In this document: positions 1,648-20,185 of the stretch, piece after piece | How positions within the stretch are numbered: position 1 is the stretch's first letter | Layout of the letters: every line of letters begins with the position of its first letter | DNA from: a virus | IMG/VR virus record: IMGVR_UViG_3300042691_040621 | Location: 1-20,185 of that record | DNA length: 20,185 bases | Strand: one strand, 5' to 3' | Made by a program: the position numbers and the translations under genes | The notes under the pieces: generated by a model | Told to the model about the DNA's origin: nothing | Seen by the model: only the letters and a program-made list of their open reading frames with translations | Databases searched by the model: none

Positions 1648-2859
1648 ATGCATTCTTTTATAACATTCATAACAGAAGAAGCAGAAGAGTCTGGTTCTGG
1701 CAAGAAATTAAAACATCTGAAACACGTAGAAGATCTTTCTATACATGATGGTCATGAGGGTGTAGGTAATGCAGCACAAATGCTTGATGATGTGCATAAG
1801 TCTTTACTTGGTAAAAACACAAATACACATATCTCAACAAAGTATGATGGTGCACCATCATTAGTATTTGGTTATCATCCAAAGAATGGTCGTTTTTTTG
1901 TAGCTTCTAAATCTGCATTTAATAAGAATCCAAAAATAAATTATACTAATCAAGATATAGAAGACAATCATGGTCACGCTCCAGGATTAGTACAAAAATT
2001 AAAAGATGCTTTACAACACTTGCCAAAAGTAGCACCAAAAAATGGTGTGTATCAAGGCGATGTAATGTATTCAAAGAAAGACGTTGAGAGTGATAAAGGC
2101 AAGTTTCATTTTCAGCCAAACACTGTAAAATACTCTATAGATCGCGATACGCATCACGGTAAAGCAATTAGAAATGCTAAGTTTGGTTTAGTTGTACATA
2201 CAAAGTATAAGGGTAGAAATTTAGAAGACATGGAAGCAACACCACATGTTGACCACGAAAACTTCTCTCAACATCCAGATGTGCATAACATCAACCCATC
2301 TGTTAAGTTCGATTCATCTCACTATACACCTGAAAAACAAAATGAGTATCTAAATCATATCGAGAATGCTAAGAGAGTTTATTCAAAAATGAAACCCGAT
2401 GCGTTCGAGCCGCTCAAAGGCCATGAAGTAGACTTAGAGGCACACATCAATGATATGGTTCGCACAGACGGTACACCATCTCACGAAGGTTATCTAAATC
2501 ATATATCTAATAAACATACTAAAGAGATAGATAAACTAAAAACAGAAGCCGGAAAAGACAAAAAGAGACAGGCTCTAGCACAAAAACTAGAACACATACA
2601 AAGCAACAAAGATAGTTTCAATAAAGCACTTGAACTACATCAGCATCTTCAAAAAGCAAAGAACGTACTAACAGATGTTATGTCAAAGAATACAGATTTT
2701 GAACATAGCATAGCTGGACAAGAAACAGGTCCAGAAGGTTTTGTTGCTCATAACAAAGGTAACATGGCCAAGTTTGTTAATAGATCAGAGTTTTCTAAGA
2801 TGAACTTACTTGGTTACGGTGCGATATCTGCAGGGAAGAAAAAAGATGAAACGGTTTAA
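1648..2859 (+). CDS. Ligase/nucleotidyltransferase-fold protein (DUF6267-like) with capsid-targeting-like N-terminus
   Basis: This is a 403-residue protein. I chose ATG 1648 over an in-frame TTG at 1633 because it places a MHSFITFITE peptide at the terminus, matching the next gene. K65-Y66-D67-G68 is motif I of the covalent nucleotidyltransferase superfamily (DNA/RNA ligases), with K65 the expected AMP-accepting lysine. E363-G-F-V and K375-F-V near the C-terminus match motifs IV and V. A long His/Lys-rich helical insertion (about residues 200-350) lies between them. Related phage proteins are catalogued as of unknown function. The reaction could be nucleic acid joining or adenylylation of another target. 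The first ten residues resemble the T4 capsid-targeting peptide MKTYQEFIAE, cleaved after Glu10, so the protein may be packaged and injected. It overlaps the next gene by 14 bases. Confidence 0.75.
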   Translation: MHSFITFITEEAEESGSGKKLKHLKHVEDLSIHDGHEGVGNAAQMLDDVHKSLLGKNTNTHISTKYDGAPSLVFGYHPKNGRFFVASKSAFNKNPKINYTNQDIEDNHGHAPGLVQKLKDALQHLPKVAPKNGVYQGDVMYSKKDVESDKGKFHFQPNTVKYSIDRDTHHGKAIRNAKFGLVVHTKYKGRNLEDMEATPHVDHENFSQHPDVHNINPSVKFDSSHYTPEKQNEYLNHIENAKRVYSKMKPDAFEPLKGHEVDLEAHINDMVRTDGTPSHEGYLNHISNKHTKEIDKLKTEAGKDKKRQALAQKLEHIQSNKDSFNKALELHQHLQKAKNVLTDVMSKNTDFEHSIAGQETGPEGFVAHNKGNMAKFVNRSEFSKMNLLGYGAISAGKKKDETV

Positions 2860-3478
2860 AAACTTTATAACAGAAGAACAGATTAAACCAAAAAATCCAG
2901 TAGTATTCTCATTTGGTCGCATGAATCCGCCTACTACAGGTCATGAAGTTCTAGTTAATAAAGTGCAAGAACTTGCAAACAAGAATAAAGCTCACCATGA
3001 AGTAGTTTTATCTGCTACTCATGATAATGATAAAAATCCATTAACTCCAGAACAGAAGTTAATGCATGCAAAAAGATTCTTTCCTGATACTAATATAAAG
3101 ATGGCTTCAAAAGCAGAACCAACACTTATACATCATGCGCAGAGATTGAATAAAGCTGGTCATGATCATCTTATCATGGTTGCTGGAGAAGATAGAGTTC
3201 AAGAATATAAAGATCTTCTAAATCGATACAATGGTAAGCCAAATAAATCTGGTACTATACCATTTAGCTTTCATAAGATCGATGTGGTATCAGCAGGCGC
3301 AAGAGATCCTGATGCTGAGGGCGCAGAAGGCATGTCAGCTTCTAAGATGAGAGATCATGCTCGTAATAATAAGTTTAAAGAGTTTAAAAAGGGTATACCT
3401 TCACATGTAAACCCAGAACATGCTAAAGAACTCTTTAACCACGTTAAAGATTCTTTGAAAAAGCCTCAGACCGATTAA
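2846..3478 (+). CDS. Cytidylyltransferase/NMNAT-like nucleotidyltransferase with capsid-targeting-like N-terminus
   Basis: This 210-residue protein starts at ATG 2846, behind a GGGAAG site and inside the end of the preceding gene. An in-frame TTG at 2810 was rejected because it would bury the MKRFKNFITE terminus. The Rossmann-type nucleotidyltransferase signature is clear: a first strand VVFSFGRMNPPTTGH ending in the T-x-G-H motif (residues 30-33), which binds the ATP phosphates, and SASKMR (164-169), equivalent to the ISSTxxR motif. Family members join a nucleoside triphosphate to NMN, phosphopantetheine or a phospho-alcohol. NMN adenylyltransferase (NAD synthesis) is the likeliest analogue, but the substrate cannot be read here. 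The N-terminal ten residues match T4 IPIII at M1, K2, F7, I8 and E10, suggesting capsid packaging and a role just after injection, such as NAD restoration. That role is inference. Confidence 0.8.
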   Translation: MKRFKNFITEEQIKPKNPVVFSFGRMNPPTTGHEVLVNKVQELANKNKAHHEVVLSATHDNDKNPLTPEQKLMHAKRFFPDTNIKMASKAEPTLIHHAQRLNKAGHDHLIMVAGEDRVQEYKDLLNRYNGKPNKSGTIPFSFHKIDVVSAGARDPDAEGAEGMSASKMRDHARNNKFKEFKKGIPSHVNPEHAKELFNHVKDSLKKPQTD

Positions 3479-5854: not shown

Positions 5855-6133
5855 ATGGATAATACTATTGTTTGGACTATTATTGTTGGTGCTGTTGCGA
5901 TTTGGGCTCTCTACAAGTTTATGTTGCCAAAGGCTGATGTTAACAACGACGGTAAGGTAGATTCTGCTGATGCGGTTGCTGCTGTTACTAAGGCTGCAGA
6001 TGTAAACCAGGATGGCAAGGTTGATGTTGCTGACGCAGTTGAAGTAGTTAAGAAGACAACAAGAAAGACTAAGGCTGTCGCAACTAAGGTAGCCGAAAAG
6101 GTAAAGAAGCCAAGGGCAAAGAAGAATGGATGA
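5855..6133 (+). CDS. Membrane-anchored dockerin-like calcium-binding peptide
   Basis: This 92-residue protein has three clear parts. Residues 4-21 form one hydrophobic helix (IVWTIIVGAVAIWALYKF), a signal anchor. Residues 28-39 and 49-60 are two near-identical calcium loops, D-x-N-x-D-G-K-V-D-x-A-D, each followed by an Ala/Val helix, as in type I dockerins. Residues 66-92 are a Lys/Arg/Ala-rich basic tail. Dockerins bind cohesin domains in bacterial surface complexes. Here the repeat spacing (21 residues) is shorter than usual. No cohesin is visible in the window. The basic tail may touch nucleic acid or lipid. It has a strong ribosome site (AAGGAG, 8 bases before ATG) and its end overlaps the Dps gene by 8 bases, so the two are translationally coupled. 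Confidence 0.75.
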   Translation: MDNTIVWTIIVGAVAIWALYKFMLPKADVNNDGKVDSADAVAAVTKAADVNQDGKVDVADAVEVVKKTTRKTKAVATKVAEKVKKPRAKKNG

Positions 6134-6563
6134 GTTAGAACAGGCTTTAAAGGAAGCACAAGCTGATACTTTTGCTTTCTATCTAAAAGCACATTATTTT
6201 CACTGGAATGTTGAGGGAGTTGACTTCTCTCAACACCATTCGTTTTTAAAAGATCTCTACGAAGAAGTCTTTGCAGCTGTTGATACAATAGCCGAAGGCA
6301 TTCGTACACTTGACATATATGTTCCTGGTTCTTTTTCAAGATTTAAAGAACTAACATCTATTCAAGATGAGACAACTATACCAAGCGCTATATCGATGAT
6401 GACAAGACTTAAAGATGATAACGAAAAAGTTCTTGATACATTAACAAAAGCTTATGAACTAGCCGAAGAAGCTAAGAAGTATGGTATCTCAAATATTATT
6501 CAGGATCGCATTGAAGCACACGAGAAGCACGGCTGGATGCTTCGTTCAATCATAAAGGTTTAA
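6126..6563 (+). CDS. dps: Dps/ferritin-like protein
   Basis: This is a 145-residue helical protein of the Dps family, which forms a 12-subunit shell that oxidises and stores iron with hydrogen peroxide and protects DNA. H26-W27-N28-V29, H38, D53 and E57 align with the E. coli Dps ferroxidase ligands H51, H63, D78 and E82, with exactly conserved spacing. The position equal to D67 is K42, with D43 next to it, so the site is slightly altered. The product is shorter than E. coli Dps (167 residues) and lacks the Lys-rich N-terminal tail used for DNA binding. The preceding overlapping gene supplies a basic tail on a separate membrane peptide. Dps in a phage could guard injected or replicating DNA against Fenton chemistry, or handle host iron late in infection. 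Confidence 0.85.
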   Translation: MDELEQALKEAQADTFAFYLKAHYFHWNVEGVDFSQHHSFLKDLYEEVFAAVDTIAEGIRTLDIYVPGSFSRFKELTSIQDETTIPSAISMMTRLKDDNEKVLDTLTKAYELAEEAKKYGISNIIQDRIEAHEKHGWMLRSIIKV

Positions 6564-13720: not shown

Positions 13721-15340
13721 ATGGATGAACAACTGTTAACGGCTATTGACTATAACGAAAAGTCTGGCTATAACATGATGATTGTGTGGGATATCGGTCG
13801 TAGGTGTAACTACGACTGTACTTACTGCACTTTATACATGCATAACTCATGGTCACCCCATGCTGAGATAGAAGAACTTAAAAAGACTATGAAATACATC
13901 GATGAGTATTACTCGGTGTATAAGTCTTTTCATAAAGTTGATTTTATGGTAACTATTAGTTTTACTGGTGGTGAACCTACCGTGAATCCTTATTTCTTTG
14001 ATTTTGTAAAGTGGATTCACGAAACTTATCCTAAAAAGTATCGTCTTAGCATGACTACCAACGCTACTTGGCCGCTGGATACAGGTGAGAAGATTCTTAA
14101 ACTGTTTAATATGATTACAGTAAGTTATCATACTGAAGCACATCCAACCTTAAAGGAAAAGGTTGTTAAGAATATTCTTAATCTCCAAGATATTGGTCAG
14201 CGTTTCAAAGTAAACGTAATGATGCATGAGAACGAACAGTACTTTAATGAGTGTGTTGATCTCATGGAAAATGTTCTTGCTCCAAGAAAGATTAGTTTTA
14301 TCCCAAGAATTATTGGTGAGAGGCTCGAGGAGCAGAAGAAGCAAGAAGTAGATCGTAAGAAGCAGAAAGTTATTACACGAAGCAAGATTCATGCTTATAC
14401 GCATGAACAGGCTGCATACATCATGATGTATTGGAACAAGAAGAATCTTGAACTTACCGATCATGCTTTCTCTAATATTAAAACTAACGATCTTAGTGTA
14501 GAAGATTCAGTTCAAGGTTTCTTTGATAGACTGCTTAAGTCTAAAGAAGTAGAAGTTGAATCCGTCGAAGAGTTTCTTTCTAAAGAACCTATTGAAGTCC
14601 AGAAAGAAATTAAGAAGATTGAAACTAAGCAGCAGAAGGTTGCTGAAGTCTCTATGCAAGGTAAACCTAAGAAGACTTACACCCTTGTCGATAACGTCAA
14701 TGCTCCTGCAAAGAAGAGTATTGAAAATGCTAACTTTGATTTTAATGCTAAGTTAGAAAAGATCAGAGAAGCTCGTAAGAACTATGAAGATCCACTCAAT
14801 ATTGTTAAGCCAGTTGAAACTCTTATGAAGTCTAAGTTCGAAGAGGGCAAAGTAGTAGGTCGATCAATTGGAAGGATGTGTTGTGGTGGTAGAGACCTAT
14901 CATGCCAAACTGTTCATTCAGAAAAAGATCAGTGGGATGAGATTAGGTTTGCCAAGAACACTAACTTCCAAGGCTGGAAGTGTATGATTAACTGGTTCTT
15001 CTTACATATTGAACAAGAGAAGGATATAGTATTCCATCACCAAACATGTAGAACAAGTCTTAACAGTGTCGAAGAACCTATTGGAAAGGTTAGTGAGTTT
15101 CCTAAGATCATTGATAAGGTTAAGGGTTATTTGTATGGCAACCTAGAGATCCCACTTATTACATGCCCTCATGATCTTTGTGGTTGTGGCATGTGTGTTC
15201 CAAAAGCCAAAGATGAAGAGACTGCTCGCAAACTATTTCACAAATATGTAAAATATCCAGTTGAACCCATTATGGAACCAATATTAGATGGTGACCCTGA
15301 TCTCCAGAAGCATATGAAAGAGATGCGGGATTATAAATAG
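13721..15340 (+). CDS. Large radical SAM protein with C-terminal cysteine-rich domain
   Basis: This is a 539-residue enzyme. C29-x3-C33-x2-C36 (CNYDCTYC) is the radical SAM motif that binds a [4Fe-4S] cluster and cleaves S-adenosylmethionine. T82-G-G-E-P86 is the SAM-binding GGEP motif. A lysine/glutamate-rich helical insertion covers about residues 215-375. The C-terminus holds many cysteines: CCGG near 387, one near 397, GWKC near 420, QTC near 444 and CPHDLCGCGMC near 481-491. They could bind auxiliary Fe-S clusters, as in SPASM/twitch enzymes that modify peptides or metabolites. The motif is not that of viperin or the short QueE. The substrate is unknown. The position after thyX hints at nucleotide or nucleic acid chemistry, but that is inference. 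Its TAG stop lies within the late box at 15332. Confidence 0.85.
   Translation: MDEQLLTAIDYNEKSGYNMMIVWDIGRRCNYDCTYCTLYMHNSWSPHAEIEELKKTMKYIDEYYSVYKSFHKVDFMVTISFTGGEPTVNPYFFDFVKWIHETYPKKYRLSMTTNATWPLDTGEKILKLFNMITVSYHTEAHPTLKEKVVKNILNLQDIGQRFKVNVMMHENEQYFNECVDLMENVLAPRKISFIPRIIGERLEEQKKQEVDRKKQKVITRSKIHAYTHEQAAYIMMYWNKKNLELTDHAFSNIKTNDLSVEDSVQGFFDRLLKSKEVEVESVEEFLSKEPIEVQKEIKKIETKQQKVAEVSMQGKPKKTYTLVDNVNAPAKKSIENANFDFNAKLEKIREARKNYEDPLNIVKPVETLMKSKFEEGKVVGRSIGRMCCGGRDLSCQTVHSEKDQWDEIRFAKNTNFQGWKCMINWFFLHIEQEKDIVFHHQTCRTSLNSVEEPIGKVSEFPKIIDKVKGYLYGNLEIPLITCPHDLCGCGMCVPKAKDEETARKLFHKYVKYPVEPIMEPILDGDPDLQKHMKEMRDYK
15332..15339 (+). promoter_or_regulatory. T4-type late promoter box driving the curli-like operon
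   Basis: This exact TATAAATA overlaps the TAG stop of the radical SAM gene and lies 20 bases before the csgF start. AGGAG (15349-15353) is the ribosome site, six bases from ATG 15360. No other promoter or terminator is evident up to the window end, so the six downstream genes are probably one late transcript. Confidence 0.7.
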
Positions 15341-15359
15341 CTTGTAACAGGAGTAAGTT

Positions 15360-15797
15360 ATGAAGAAGATAGCGTTACTAATATGCTTATTTTCTTCTGC
15401 TTCTTATGCAAGTGAACTGAGTTTTGGGTTTAAAAACCCATCTTTTTCTGGTGTCGGCTATTCGTCTCATGTCTTAACTATTGATAACCTTGAACAAACA
15501 AGGAAGCAGAAGATAATAGAAGACAAGAAAACGGAAGCAGCCAAAGCTGCAGCTGATGCCAAGAATACTAACTTGGCTAAGTTCTTAAATAATCTTGAAA
15601 GTAGAATCTACGCAACGATATCACAAAATATCGCTGCTGAGTTATTCAAAGAAGGCGGAGCAACTACAGGATCTTTCGACATTGGTGGGAATAATTTACA
15701 ATGGTCATCTGATGGAAGTACTATAACATTAAGAATTACTGATCCCGGTGGTAGTGTTACGCAGGTAGTAGTACCATACGGGAGTTTAGCATGGTAA
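15360..15797 (+). CDS. csgF: Curli assembly protein CsgF
   Basis: CsgF sits on the outer face of the CsgG pore and passes the curli subunit to the cell surface. The 145-residue product has a signal peptide (KKIALLICLFSSASYA, cut near residue 18), then ELSFGFKNPSFSG (19-31), the conserved F-(R/K)-N-P-x-F motif that plugs into CsgG. A helix with a Lys/Ala-rich run comes next, and a beta-rich end (residues 105-143). E. coli CsgF has 138 residues, so length and order match. It is the first gene under the late box and overlaps csgG by seven bases. I see no truncation. Confidence 0.88.
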   Translation: MKKIALLICLFSSASYASELSFGFKNPSFSGVGYSSHVLTIDNLEQTRKQKIIEDKKTEAAKAAADAKNTNLAKFLNNLESRIYATISQNIAAELFKEGGATTGSFDIGGNNLQWSSDGSTITLRITDPGGSVTQVVVPYGSLAW

Positions 15798-16612
15798 AGT
15801 ATGCATTTTTAATGGTTTGTGCTTTGGCATTAGTCGGTTGTACAGGTAGTAAGATTACATCTAGTAGAGATCTAGAAAGCCAAGTAGATAAGGCAGAAGT
15901 AATTACTACAAAAAGATTCAACGAACTCATAAATATGCCTGCTGTTAGTAGTGATCCTATACCAGTAGCTGTATATAAATTTTCTGATATGAGTGGACAG
16001 AGAAAACCATCTAGCAATTATGCTAGTTTGAGTTCAGCTGTTACACAGGGTGGAGAAGTTATTTTAATAAAAGCTTTACAGGATGCTTCAAAGGGTAAAT
16101 TCTTTAAGCCTATTGAAAGAGTTAGTCTTGATAATCTTGTAAAAGAAAGACAACTCATCAGAAGTCAACGTGAAGTTTATGAAAAAGAAGAAGCTAAACC
16201 ATTAACACCCCTTATTGTTGCAGGTATAATGATAGAGGGTGGTATAGTTGGTTATGATAGTAATATTGCAACTGGTGGAATAGGTGCTCGTTATCTTGGT
16301 CTTGGTGCTCAACAAGAGTATCGTAAAGATGAAGTAACTGTGATGCTAAGACTTATATCAATAAGCACTGGTGAGATATTAATATCAAGTGGTGTAACTA
16401 AAACAATTTATAGTACTGGTGTAAGTGCTAATATATTTAAGTTTGTTGATGCTGGTACAAGATCTGTTGAGTTAGAAGCTGGAACTTCTATAAATGAGCC
16501 AACTACTTATGCAGTAAGACTAGCTATTGAAACTGCAGTAGTTGATATAATAAAGCAAGGTGCTCAGAAGAAATTATGGAAGTATAAAGAAACAGGGAAA
16601 AAAGGAAAATAA
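15791..16612 (+). CDS. csgG: Curli secretion channel CsgG (outer-membrane lipoprotein)
   Basis: CsgG forms a nonameric 36-strand outer-membrane pore that exports unfolded curli subunits. The 273-residue product starts with a lipoprotein signal: hydrophobic residues 5-15 and lipobox L14-V15-G16-C17, followed by Thr, a non-retention residue, so outer-membrane sorting is expected. The rest follows the CsgG fold: a VAVYKFSDMSGQRKPSSNYAS segment (about 59-79), FKPIERVSLDNLVKERQLI (104-122), a TPLIVAGIMIEGGIVGYDSN region (138-157) and VMLRLISISTGEIL with its C-terminal helix. Length equals the E. coli precursor. It is coupled to csgF by overlap, and a substrate-like curlin follows three bases later. 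Confidence 0.9.
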   Translation: MVKYAFLMVCALALVGCTGSKITSSRDLESQVDKAEVITTKRFNELINMPAVSSDPIPVAVYKFSDMSGQRKPSSNYASLSSAVTQGGEVILIKALQDASKGKFFKPIERVSLDNLVKERQLIRSQREVYEKEEAKPLTPLIVAGIMIEGGIVGYDSNIATGGIGARYLGLGAQQEYRKDEVTVMLRLISISTGEILISSGVTKTIYSTGVSANIFKFVDAGTRSVELEAGTSINEPTTYAVRLAIETAVVDIIKQGAQKKLWKYKETGKKGK

Positions 16613-16615
16613 GAA

Positions 16616-17299
16616 ATGAAAAAACTCACAAGAATGATGACATTTATATCATTCTTGGTTATGTCTGGTTATGTAAATGCGGCAAACTTAATCTATATGG
16701 ACCAGATAGGTGATGGTTCTACAATAAACATCACACAAACGGGTGCAGGAAACGCAATTGGTACATCAGGTGTTAAGTCAACTTTTACTGGTGACAATAA
16801 CACAGTGACAATTGAACAAATTGGAAACAACAACGTAACTAATATGACTGTTAGTGGTGATGGTGCCACTATATCTTCTATTATTAATGGTAGTTCAAAC
16901 ATACTAAACTTAGAGTGTGGTGCTAATGGCGGATCTTGCGGACCATCAACTATAACTAAAACAATTACGGGCGATGGTAACCAAGTAACACAATCTACAG
17001 ATACATTAACTAATACAACTGTTACGATTCAATCAGATAATAACCAAGTAAATGTTACAAGTACTTCAACGGCAGTTGCTGGTACTAAGAACACAGTTGA
17101 TATCTCTGGTGGTAGTGGTAACATAGTTGATGTTGTGCAGGCTGGTACTGCTTCAACTGTTGGTCATGAAGTTGATTTAACAATAAATGGTGCTTTAAAT
17201 ACCATTGACTTTAGACAGGGTGGAGCAGTTGATTCTAAGATCGTTACAACTATTACTGGTTCTAGCAACGCCGTTACTATTAAGTCCAACCACAACTAA
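16616..17299 (+). CDS. Secreted curlin-repeat protein (candidate CsgG substrate)
   Basis: This 227-residue protein has a signal peptide ending near A22-A23 (SGYVNA-A). It is followed by imperfect repeats of the curlin type, S/D-x-N-x-(V/I)-x-I-x-Q-x-G-x-x-N, for example DGSTINITQTGAGN (33-46), GDNNTVTIEQIGNNN (59-73) and the blocks at about 138-152 and 165-180. These build the beta-helical rungs of curli amyloid. The composition is Thr/Asn/Gly/Ser-rich with almost no charged residues, as in CsgA. Two cysteines, C101 and C108, lie in one turn, unlike CsgA. It is longer than CsgA (151 residues). Its last 95 bases overlap the next gene in another frame. No CsgC or CsgE is visible, so export may use host factors. 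Confidence 0.82.
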   Translation: MKKLTRMMTFISFLVMSGYVNAANLIYMDQIGDGSTINITQTGAGNAIGTSGVKSTFTGDNNTVTIEQIGNNNVTNMTVSGDGATISSIINGSSNILNLECGANGGSCGPSTITKTITGDGNQVTQSTDTLTNTTVTIQSDNNQVNVTSTSTAVAGTKNTVDISGGSGNIVDVVQAGTASTVGHEVDLTINGALNTIDFRQGGAVDSKIVTTITGSSNAVTIKSNHN

Positions 17300-18338
17300 T
17301 GCTGCGGTTGGTGAAGTAACAGAACAATCTGGACCTACAGAGATAAAAAGACAGTCGACTGTTATACCCAGCGCTTTGCAGTTTGGTGTAGAGATGCAAG
17401 ATATCATCACTACAGCTAATGCAAAGGCTGGGATAACTTTTAAAGATGATACACGAGTCCAAATAACTGAACATAGTAAACTAGTAATTGATAACTTTGT
17501 TTATGATGGTGAAAAGAAAACCGGTAAACTTGGTATCAAGATGGCTCTTGGTACAATCAAGTATGCATCTGGTCAGATAGCAAAAAATGACCCACAACAG
17601 GTTGTAGTTACAACACCAACTGCAACTATTGGCGTTAGAGGTACTGACTTTTCAAGCACAGTTGATGAATTGGGAAGATCACAGATCATATTGTTGCCTT
17701 CATGTCCTGAAGGTTGGAAAGATATACAAAAAGACTGTGTGACTGGTAAAATTATAGTATCTTCTGCTATGGGAACAGTTTTACTAACTAAACCTTTTGA
17801 ATCTACTACAGTTGATACTGGATTTACGAGACCATCACCATCTGCAATATTAAATCTTGATCTTAATCAGATTAATAATCTTATTATTGTTACACCGCCT
17901 AAAATTTCAGAAAACAGCGAAAGAGTTTTAGAAAGAAGAGGATTCAACTTTTTAGATGAAGATTTTTTAGGTAAAGATCATCTTAAGTTTACTGAACTTG
18001 ATAGAGACTTTCTAAAAGAATTTAATAAATTAGATAAAGATTTCTTAGGAACAGATTATCTTTATAATTTCTTAGATGTAGCTTCTTCACAGCTCTTATC
18101 AGATGAGTTAGCTGAGTTTAATGCTTTATTACCTAAGTTTAATCCTACAAGTGGATTAAAGTTTTTTGTTGAGAATGAGATGCTAACTCTTTACAGAGAA
18201 ACAGTAAATAGCTATGCTGAACTCACTATGTCACAGTATAGATCTGGCACTCTTAAAATAACACAAGAAGGCCTTGAAGTTAAACAAATCATAAACAATA
18301 CGGGTACTACCGTAATTAACATAAAGCAATCAGAATGA
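17205..18338 (+). CDS. FecR-domain periplasmic protein
   Basis: The only usable starts are TTG 17205 and TTG 17229, since an in-frame TAA lies at 17196. Both give a Leu-rich signal peptide (LQLLLVLATPLLL, cut near TNA-A at residues 32-34), which is encoded over the 3' end of the curlin gene in another frame. The mature part is a FecR beta domain: AGITFKDDTRVQI (75-87) to VVVTTPTATIGVRGTDF (133-149), the latter being its hallmark. In FecR proteins this domain is periplasmic and senses or docks; here there is no N-terminal cytosolic sigma-regulator tail. C167 and C178 may pair. Residues 245-290 repeat an LDxDFL pattern. The C-terminus, NNTGTTVINIKQ, resembles a curlin rung. In bacteria FecR-domain proteins often neighbour CHASE2 cyclases, as here. 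Confidence 0.8.
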   Translation: MTLDRVEQLILRSLQLLLVLATPLLLSPTTTNAAVGEVTEQSGPTEIKRQSTVIPSALQFGVEMQDIITTANAKAGITFKDDTRVQITEHSKLVIDNFVYDGEKKTGKLGIKMALGTIKYASGQIAKNDPQQVVVTTPTATIGVRGTDFSSTVDELGRSQIILLPSCPEGWKDIQKDCVTGKIIVSSAMGTVLLTKPFESTTVDTGFTRPSPSAILNLDLNQINNLIIVTPPKISENSERVLERRGFNFLDEDFLGKDHLKFTELDRDFLKEFNKLDKDFLGTDYLYNFLDVASSQLLSDELAEFNALLPKFNPTSGLKFFVENEMLTLYRETVNSYAELTMSQYRSGTLKITQEGLEVKQIINNTGTTVINIKQSE

Positions 18339-18616
18339 AGATATTATTAGCACTCTTATTCATGACTTCATCAGTGTTTTCTCAGACGGTACCATCACCC
18401 GTCATGAATAATGCTACCGTGAATTTAACAGGAAACTTTAATAATGTTATTATTAATCAATCTGGTACTGGTTATCACACTGCTACTATTAATAGTACTG
18501 GCGATAACATCCCCATCAACATCACGCAATCCGGTAATACCAATAAGTCTATATCAATCGATATTCATTGCACTAGCAATTGTGCAGCTAATCCTTATAT
18601 TATTAATCAATATTGA
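18335..18616 (+). CDS. Small secreted curlin-repeat protein (second fibre-like subunit)
   Basis: This 93-residue product has a signal peptide (KILLALLFMTSSVFSQ, cut near S16-Q17) and a start overlapping the FecR stop by four bases (ATGA). The mature 76 residues carry two curlin-like rungs, GNFNNVIINQSGTGYHT (33-49) and STGDNIPINITQSGNTN (54-70), then a tail with C79 and C83 (HCTSNC) and a closing YIINQY. It is far smaller than CsgA and has a Cys pair like its larger neighbour. It may be a nucleator, in the role of CsgB, or a cap for the fibre. It is not a fragment of the first curlin, because it has its own signal sequence. Confidence 0.72.
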   Translation: MKILLALLFMTSSVFSQTVPSPVMNNATVNLTGNFNNVIINQSGTGYHTATINSTGDNIPINITQSGNTNKSISIDIHCTSNCAANPYIINQY

Positions 18617-18618
18617 AC

Positions 18619-20185
18619 ATGGAAACCTTAGGAAAAATATTAACCAGCGTATGGGCAGTTGTTATCTCAGCGATAATGCTATTGGCCGTATATGCTTATA
18701 ATCCTAACCCTGCACAAGTACTACAATTAAAAACATTTGATTACTTAATCAACACATTAGAAGATAAAAAATCTGAAGAGATAGTAATTGTTGATTTTGG
18801 TGAAAAATCAGTTAAGCAATTTGGTCAGTGGCCTTTTGATCGTAGAGATATAGCAAAAACAATAAAAAAGTTGAAAGAAAATGGCGCTGCTGTAATAGTT
18901 ATGCCAATACTTTTCTCTGAAAAAGATAGAGCAGGAGGAGATAATGAACTTACAAAATCTTTGGACGGTGTTGTCATCGCTCAAACTCCTACTACTCAAG
19001 ATGTACCACCTGATGCAGTACGTCGTGGGTTTGCTTCTATCGGTCCTGTTAACCCTGTCGATTATGTTTTTCGTTGGAGGGGCGGCATACGTCCTTTACG
19101 TGAGCATGCCGAAGTGGCCGGAGGTGTTGGAGTGGTCGCCACCGTTAGTGAAGTGGATGGTGTGGTTCGTCGTATCCCTCTACTTGTCAATATTGCTGGG
19201 GGTCTCTACCCTTCTGTACCTTTGGAAACGATTAGAGTCGCCGCTGGCGATCCTAGTTACCAAATTAAAACAAGTGAGATCGGACCAGAGTTCGTCCGTG
19301 TACCTGCTTTCGCGCCGATACAGACTGATGAAAGAGGAAGAATCTGGGCGACATGGAACACAAAGTTCGAAAGAATAGAAGCTACAGAGATTGATAATCG
19401 TGTTGAAGGCAAAATAGTAGTATTAGGCATTTCAATTGAGGGTGTTGGTGGTATAATAGCTACACCAGTCGGAGAGAAGTGGGCTCATGATATACAAGCG
19501 AGCGCTCTACAAACTCTTATAGATGGTACATCTATTTCACGCGCTTCTCATGCGCAAATAACAGAAGGACTACTATTAGCAGGAATATTACTGATAATGC
19601 TTGTCCTAGTACCACGACTGTCTGTGTTATGGACTGTTCCATTTTATGTTCTTTTTGTTACTATAATAAGTTATGGTTCATATTATTTATTTAAGTATAG
19701 CTTAGAACTGTGGAATCCTAGTTACATATTACTTGCTGGTTCTTTTGTTTATGGACACATACTATTTAATAATTTTGCAAGAGAATTTAGACTTAAACAA
19801 CAGATAAAGAAGCAATTTGGGACTTATCTCTCACCAGCTTTGGTAGAGAAGCTCCAGAAAAACCCGGAGTTATTGCAACTTGGTGGAGATACTAGAGAGT
19901 TATCAATCATGTTTACTGATGTTCGTGGGTTTACTACTATTAGCGAGCATTACGGAAGCGACGTTCAGGGACTAACTAAGATCATGAACCGTTATATGAC
20001 GGCTATGACTGCTAAGATCCTTGAGAATAATGGAACACTAGACAAATATATCGGCGATGCACAGATGGCATTTTGGAATGCACCACTCGATGATGCCGAC
20101 CATGCTAAGCACGCAGTTAAAACAGCATTGGAGATGTTAGATGATTTGGCCAGATTCAACGACGAAATCGCATCTGAAGGCGTAC
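18619..20185 (+). CDS. CHASE2-domain class III adenylate/guanylate cyclase (3' end cut)
   Basis: The frame opens two bases after the previous stop and stays open for 522 codons to the window edge. Residues 8-27 are a membrane helix. Residues 30-305 form a CHASE2 extracytoplasmic sensor, with FDYLI, WPFDRRDIA and the DGVVRRIPLLVNIAGGLYPS block (180-199). Three membrane helices follow (about 313-385), then a GTYLSPALVEKL linker (401-412) and the cyclase domain from about 426. D434 in MFTDVRGFTTISE and D480 in DKYIGDA are the two metal-binding aspartates, and K476 is the lysine usual in ATP-specific cyclases. The remaining transition-state Asn/Arg lie beyond the window. It would turn an envelope signal into cAMP (or cGMP). 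Bases 19021-19320 are about 52% G+C, far above the flanks. Confidence 0.88.
   Translation, partial: METLGKILTSVWAVVISAIMLLAVYAYNPNPAQVLQLKTFDYLINTLEDKKSEEIVIVDFGEKSVKQFGQWPFDRRDIAKTIKKLKENGAAVIVMPILFSEKDRAGGDNELTKSLDGVVIAQTPTTQDVPPDAVRRGFASIGPVNPVDYVFRWRGGIRPLREHAEVAGGVGVVATVSEVDGVVRRIPLLVNIAGGLYPSVPLETIRVAAGDPSYQIKTSEIGPEFVRVPAFAPIQTDERGRIWATWNTKFERIEATEIDNRVEGKIVVLGISIEGVGGIIATPVGEKWAHDIQASALQTLIDGTSISRASHAQITEGLLLAGILLIMLVLVPRLSVLWTVPFYVLFVTIISYGSYYLFKYSLELWNPSYILLAGSFVYGHILFNNFAREFRLKQQIKKQFGTYLSPALVEKLQKNPELLQLGGDTRELSIMFTDVRGFTTISEHYGSDVQGLTKIMNRYMTAMTAKILENNGTLDKYIGDAQMAFWNAPLDDADHAKHAVKTALEMLDDLARFNDEIASEGV

Follow-up and report, generated by a model that had tools for sequence, protein, structure and literature searches.

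A curli-type secretion cassette with FecR and CHASE2 cyclase genes in a marine virus contig, with predicted late expression, paired cysteines and an overprinted signal peptide

A secreted amyloid system is an odd trait in lytic marine phages, and published papers call its function unclear. We describe a curli-type cassette in IMG/VR virus record IMGVR_UViG_3300042691_040621. The window that we analyzed is the entire record of 20,185 bases, and the cassette runs to the record end. From position 15332 on, six same-strand open reading frames (ORFs) encode CsgF, CsgG, a curlin-repeat protein (Cur1), a FecR-domain protein, a second, small curlin-like protein (Cur2), and a CHASE2 class III cyclase. 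We favor, at a probability of roughly 60%, late export of phage curlin through CsgG and CsgF together with a FecR-CHASE2 sensor. In this reading, the virus encodes a type VIII (curli) cassette that would be turned on late by the T4-type late sigma factor of the phage, and CsgG, aided by CsgF, would assemble into a pore in the outer membrane through which the phage-encoded Cur1, and probably Cur2, would reach the surface of the host cell during infection. The periplasmic FecR protein would contact the inner-membrane CHASE2 cyclase, and the two would act as an envelope-to-cytosol sensor whose cyclic AMP (cAMP) output follows envelope condition or export status. As for the benefit, the likeliest candidate, with weak support, would be a late surface coat or clumping that excludes rival phages or holds new hosts near. 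The features are as follows (lengths in amino acids, aa):

15332-15339, plus strand: putative T4-type late promoter box TATAAATA, called from its position upstream of csgF and its enrichment before starts in relatives
15360-15797, plus strand: csgF, 145 aa, with a signal peptide at the N-terminus as judged by eye (Pfam PF10614, 1.3e-17; phrog_35372, 3.2e-47)
15791-16612, plus strand: csgG, 273 aa, predicted outer-membrane lipoprotein pore (Pfam PF03783, 2.8e-51)
16616-17299, plus strand: Cur1, 227 aa, curlin-repeat protein, predicted all-beta solenoid by AlphaFold2, with Cys101 and Cys108 (Curlin_rpt, 0.00045, 20.5 bits)
17229-17299, plus strand: overlap of 71 nucleotides (nt), in which the last Cur1 repeat also encodes, in another frame, the predicted start and signal peptide of FecR
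17229-18338, plus strand: FecR-domain protein, 369 aa from TTG 17229, the likeliest start; the ORF opens at TTG 17205 (PF04773, 1.3e-11; phrog_37870, 1.4e-96)
18335-18616, plus strand: Cur2, 93 aa, small curlin-like protein with Cys79 and Cys83 (weak Curlin_rpt match, 0.026, 14.9 bits)
18613-20184, plus strand: CHASE2 membrane sensor with class III cyclase domain, truncated by the contig end (CHASE2, 1.6e-38; Guanylate_cyc, 9.9e-7)
13721-15340, plus strand: radical SAM protein, 539 aa, the gene preceding the cassette and outside it (PF04055, 2.2e-11)

The ORFs and Pfam matches bear out the gene identities and the tight same-strand order that a sequence-only reading of this DNA had assigned to the six genes. 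The CHASE2-cyclase gene starts at TTG 18613, with an ATG at 18619 in the same frame, and its ORF is open at the window end. PHROGs has families for CsgF, CsgG, FecR, and the cyclase, every one labelled 'unknown function', and no family for Cur1 or Cur2.

The module itself has been published. The available portions of PMC9599517 (2022) describe a pelagiphage module of csgF, csgG, curlin, FecR, second curlin, and cyclase in that order, and those of PMC7029224 (2020) describe csgF and csgG in an operon of pelagimyophages. This pelagiphage type VIII secretion system (T8SS) module, also seen in phages HTVC008M and Melnitz, has the same genes in the same order as the window. GenBank annotates all six genes in Melnitz (two curlin-repeat proteins, a FecR protein, and a cyclase among them), and csgF, csgG, one curlin, and the cyclase in HTVC008M, where FecR and the second curlin are listed as hypothetical. 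The sequence-only reading was therefore mistaken in taking the linked curlin pair, FecR, and cyclase to be undescribed. Matches in a phage collection numbered six records for FecR, seven for CsgG, and six for the cyclase, namely HTVC008M (two entries), Melnitz (four) and, for CsgG, also one Salmonella phage record. OR851715.1, an unannotated 1,499-base 'Salmonella phage' record with a CsgG match of 39.6% identity, is perhaps host DNA.

The window proteins are 27-48% identical to those of HTVC008M and Melnitz. The window differs from both phages in a CsgG that groups with a lineage that includes contigs of 236-364 kb, in the 71-nt Cur1-FecR overlap, and in its very short Cur2. According to the available part of PMC9599517, a histidine kinase always precedes the module (stated for podoviruses), whereas the window has the radical SAM gene there. 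In three relatives (L022:6900-7462, L023:6119-6757, and L044:8836-9416), pairs of membrane proteins of ~93-115 aa (phrog_18771) lie directly or nearly upstream of csgF; these may be what PMC9599517 calls a histidine kinase. Two of them weakly match a holin family (best 1.1e-4), and none was seen before csgF in the window. The portions of PMC9599517, PMC7029224, and PMC9004378 that were available make no mention of Cys pairs, the overlap, a late box, or jumbo phages, and use 'promoter' and 'overlap' in other contexts only. The Cys pairs, overprinted signal peptide, late box, and large-phage branch thus appear to be new details on a published module.

The gene order is widely conserved in viral contigs. 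A search for it in other viral contigs had been proposed, and in a FecR scan of IMG/VR it recurs in 20 loci wherever the sequence extends, with FecR split over three ORFs in one of them (L019). A CsgG scan of IMG/VR gave at least 600 stretches and at least 573 relatives, from which we kept the best 80 loci; at least five of these are also in the FecR scan, and the counts that follow cover only loci long enough to tell. Every testable locus of this set has csgF (75/75), a curlin (73/73), and FecR (61/61), and 38/41 have a cyclase no more than 8 kb from csgG, the exceptions being L126, L135, and L137. Pore and substrate thus occur together, as csgF and a curlin accompany csgG at every testable viral locus.

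Bacterial curli (type VIII) operons share CsgG, CsgF, and curlin-repeat proteins with the window, but the window has FecR and a cyclase attached, a Cys pair in Cur1, and no CsgE that we could find. The 80 CsgG loci that we took from bacterial genome records comprise 68 bacterial-type loci, one Hyphomonas locus (L028), and 11 phage-like contigs binned into metagenome-assembled genomes (MAGs), which were set apart by their flanking genes (seven inspected) or their place in the CsgG tree. Among the 68 bacterial-type loci, of which 45 have at least 5 kb on both sides, no FecR was found, and L082 alone has a cyclase nearby. It is not quite true that the arrangement never occurs in bacteria, because the Hyphomonas sp. 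TMED17 locus (L028:9474-15497) carries csgF-csgG-curlin-FecR-cyclase, in the same order as the window, on a 705-kb contig with TonB-receptor-like and metabolic genes around it (by eye). Unlike the window, it has a 504-aa curlin without Cys, no second curlin, and a FecR that is 29% identical. Its FecR was matched in only 1 of 299 genomes of its order at E<=1e-12, that one being TMED17 itself. Its branch in the CsgG tree is long, and the direction of transfer cannot be read from the tree. The locus contradicts a published statement that bacterial curli operons are without FecR and cyclase.

Seven of the best 80 viral CsgG loci sit on contigs of 236-364 kb, of which 6/7 match the T4-type Gp23 capsid family, 7/7 have FecR, and 5/7 have the cyclase in view. 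We built a quick CsgG tree of 97 rows, with near-copies dropped and only Shimodaira-Hasegawa-like approximate likelihood ratio test (SH-aLRT) support. In this tree the window clade groups with the seven large contigs (35 rows, support 93, below the tool's 95 mark), HTVC008M and Melnitz fall in a separate group (32 rows, support 98), and every viral row plus TMED17 lies on one side of a branch with support 97. Judged by its gene order and tree position, the window truly belongs to the published viral module, its branch groups with that of very large phages, and the large contigs extend the range of the module beyond the described pelagiphages. No report of curli genes on such large-phage contigs was seen among the papers listed by our searches of the literature library, supplements aside. 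The available parts of PMC7198788 mention that a T4-like virus, which is assigned to Bacteroidetes, carries curli genes, and those of PMC7003362 and PMC11309003 describe csgG as common in marine phages.

When would the cassette be expressed? The box TATAAATA overlaps the stop codon of the preceding gene and stands 20 nt ahead of the csgF ATG. Its count in the window is unremarkable (4 vs 2.24 expected, with 19/100 shuffles reaching 4). The late promoter that had been proposed before csgF is supported as a T4-type one by the position of the box in relatives, its enrichment at starts, and homologues of the late sigma factor gp55. In 12 of 18 loci checked, the window included and some of them near-copies, TATAAATA lies 13-33 nt upstream of the csgF ATG; it was not found before csgF in L006, L007, L009, L013, L016, or Melnitz. 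In HTVC008M, which is annotated, 14 of 21 sites have a same-strand start no more than 60 nt downstream, compared with 144/1611 for 55 permuted motifs, the best of which reaches 0.33 (3/9) vs 0.67 for TATAAATA. Nine of these start-proximal sites precede structural genes, as classed by product name, and one precedes csgF. For the 167-kb contig G002, which belongs to the window clade, we called genes ourselves and chose starts leniently; 23/37 sites there are start-proximal compared with 300/1605 for permuted motifs, and the best permuted motifs reach 0.50-0.55 vs 0.62, and two of these are the late box shifted by 1-2 bases. A gp55 homologue is present in 6/8 relatives tested, including G002, and none is present in the window, itself a fragment. 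Promoter box and gp55 together support late expression of the cassette. In the portions of those papers that were available, PMC7029224 reports that prediction of late promoters failed in pelagimyophages and PMC9004378 used TATAAAT in Melnitz. At five HTVC008M genes, csgF included (positions L022:7549-7561 and 6267, 18922, 31119, and 49747), TATAAATA stands exactly 5 nt ahead of the ATG, and it stands likewise 5 nt ahead of the csgF ATG at L010:6141 and L012:6138. With the T4 spacing, late mRNA of such genes would presumably begin at the ATG, that is, be leaderless.

The FecR family is matched by 20/20 homologues of the window FecR, whose signal peptide was judged by eye and whose gene is parted from the cyclase gene by Cur2 alone. 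No ATG stands at the head of the FecR signal peptide in the window clade. In 15/15 window-clade loci tested, a TTG that follows a GGTGG-type stretch occupies the same position, 71 nt ahead of where Cur1 ends, and we picked TTG 17229 as the conserved start; a GTG at 80 nt or an ATG at 56 nt is an additional candidate in some loci. The exact codon is a candidate, and the predicted FecR start overlaps Cur1 whichever candidate is used. Fourfold-degenerate third bases of Cur1 differ in 147/787 comparisons (0.19) inside the overlap vs 3548/6658 (0.53) outside, where the lowest of 186 22-codon windows is 0.29. By this measure, the last 71 nt of Cur1, over which the FecR signal peptide is overprinted, are under synonymous constraint. 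By eye, candidate FecR starts ~47-77 nt inside Cur1 recur in relatives of the window and in the large contigs, and many HTVC008M-type loci have a FecR ATG at or adjoining the Cur1 end, several of them also with longer candidate overlaps. The overlap is absent in HTVC008M and 23 nt long in Melnitz. The FecR C-terminus (..ITIKQSN) looked by eye like a curlin strand, a candidate that we rejected, as Curlin_rpt was matched by 0/20 FecR at E<=10.

A conserved Cys pair is found in each of Cur1, FecR, and Cur2 and is rare among the bacterial curlins examined. Cys101 and Cys108 of Cur1 are invariant in 19/19 aligned homologues, the farthest of which is 25% identical, and Cys79 and Cys83 of Cur2 are invariant in 11/11. 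In the best-80 viral set, 68/72 Cur1 have at least two Cys, and in 59/72 the pair is spaced 6-8 residues apart. FecR has exactly two Cys after residue 45 in 61/69, four in 4, one in 1, and none in 3. We infer that the pairs of Cur1, FecR, and Cur2 would form disulfides. The Cur1 model is a beta-solenoid (mean predicted local distance difference test score, pLDDT, 83.9). A fold search with it (209 chains aligned) has SufB/SufD and other beta-solenoids on top and no curli structure among the 50 entries listed. The Cur1 profile matched only 5gge (0.0016) and 8c50, a curlin-repeat protein (0.82), among sequences of solved structures.

By its profile, the cyclase resembles CyaB and other class III cyclases. 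The nearest complete homologue (L002:9385-11448) is 687 aa long and 85% identical to the window cyclase over the shared part. We take the catalytic set to be a metal Asp pair, Lys, a specificity residue, Asn, and Arg. The window cyclase ends before the last three of these positions; L002 is of the Thr/Asn type, and its residues fit an active enzyme. Among 63 viral cyclases, the specificity and transition-state residues are Thr/Asn in 36, Asp/Ser in 20, Ser/Asn in 4, and Asp/Asn in 1, with 2 unread. The Asp/Ser cyclases (L023, L131, L138, L141, L144, L145, L146, L156, L158, L160, L161, L164, L166, L168, L169, L171, L181, L182, L185, and L186) possibly have altered activity or are dead enzymes. 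Upstream of csgF in four loci (L130:6185-6556, L131:8126-8485, L133:6841-7197, and L156:6909-7226), ORFs of 105-123 aa match the cyclase profile (2.9e-6 to 1.2e-14) and look like the cyclase C-terminal tail alone. In Campylobacterota, as described in the available part of PMC9239204, CHASE2 cyclases cluster with a FecR-domain protein, the same pairing as in the window, which supports FecR as the cyclase partner. Those clusters also hold a phosphodiesterase and a TPR protein, whereas the window pair is joined to curli export instead.

Several observations weigh against curlin export with a cAMP-making sensor. No CsgE family match was found in 12 records (the window included, several of them fragments), and the E. 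coli control matched, so the sequence-only reading overstated the case in calling the module complete. According to the available parts of PMC9599517, CsgE is also missing there, and Alphaproteobacteria modules are said to be without it; given both observations, the type VIII claim becomes one of a CsgE-less T8SS. The Cur1 match to Curlin_rpt is just below the Pfam cut-off of 20.7 bits, that of Cur2 is weak, and the beta-solenoid fold is common in non-fibre proteins too. The AlphaFold2 model of FecR is poor and unusable (mean pLDDT 56). L176 was left out of the FecR count as too short; its 1.8 kb downstream of csgG holds two curlins but no FecR gene. The available part of PMC9004378 reports no clumping in Melnitz infections under its conditions. 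For cAMP itself, a cyclic nucleotide (cNMP)-binding domain was found in 0/15 phage records, several of them fragments. In the 147 Pelagibacteraceae genomes (completeness unstated) that make up the family of a Candidatus Pelagibacter MAG, this domain is found in 9, leaving 138/147 without a match, and a class III cyclase domain in 3, two of them above the cut-off. As cAMP-binding families are rare or not found, cAMP would be without an obvious reader if the host is Pelagibacteraceae-like.

One broader idea, which we regard as speculative and doubtful as a whole, is that viruses rebuilt curli export into a virus-specific machine common to T4-like and very large phages. It would have disulfide-stapled curlins and an overprinted FecR signal peptide, and cAMP from its CHASE2 cyclase would serve the virus (possible uses being an ATP drain or a timer) and not a host regulon, the hosts often being without a cAMP receptor. 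The Cys pairs, the gene overlap, and a cyclase without an obvious receptor are direct handles on function.

If the exported curlins do not make amyloid fibres, Cur1 and Cur2 could instead be single disulfide-held beta-solenoids that act as a plug, an adhesin, or a receptor mask. The Cys pairs fit this, as 139/155 bacterial curlin-repeat ORFs have no Cys after residue 40, and so do the very small size of Cur2 and the fact that beta-solenoids are often not fibres. Given that the curlin repeat signature is matched by 15/19 Cur1 homologues at E<=0.01 and that the linkage to a curli exporter is constant, we consider this unlikely.

We judge it less likely again that lysis is timed by a gated hole, pinholin- or secretin-like, which CsgG and CsgF would form in the outer membrane, with the other genes as accessories. 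The available part of PMC9004378 proposed CsgGF of Melnitz as a possible lysis-timing pore, with csgA and csgB said to be missing; the lack of clumping there, late expression, and the two small, weakly holin-matching membrane proteins that some relatives encode ahead of csgF are in keeping with this, but those proteins are not seen in the window. The main premise of the lone-pore idea does not hold: all testable viral loci of the best-80 set have a curlin downstream of csgG, and Melnitz itself has two annotated curlin-repeat genes; this wide co-conservation of curlin and pore argues against the idea. The lipobox Cys17 of CsgG is invariant in 8/8 aligned sequences, and among solved structures the CsgG profile matches E. 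coli-type CsgG (3x2r) at 2.8e-64.

Uptake of nutrients or cofactors such as iron through the pore has been suggested, in the portions of PMC9599517 and PMC7029224 available, and FecR is named after iron uptake. It would leave the constant curlins unexplained, and an iron-regulator reading of FecR is disfavoured because CHASE2 cyclases also have FecR-domain partners in settings other than iron uptake (PMC9239204, in the part available); we hold uptake to be very improbable.

A bacterial chimera from about 15340, which the sequence-only reading had named as a finding that would refute it and for which the bacterial origin of the gene types might speak, is excluded for practical purposes because the radical SAM-csgF junction recurs in five other contigs (L002, L003, L004, L020, and L021), one of 167 kb, and a phage late box sits at the junction.

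Ahead of the radical SAM gene lie a small ORF and then ThyX. On the question of a photosynthetic host, the psbA family was matched in 0/6 relatives, some of them fragments, yet cyanophage proteins are among the best matches of one structural protein of the window and of the primase. Elsewhere in the window, a Dps-like protein (6126-6563) and a cytidylyltransferase-like protein (2810-3478) were judged by eye.

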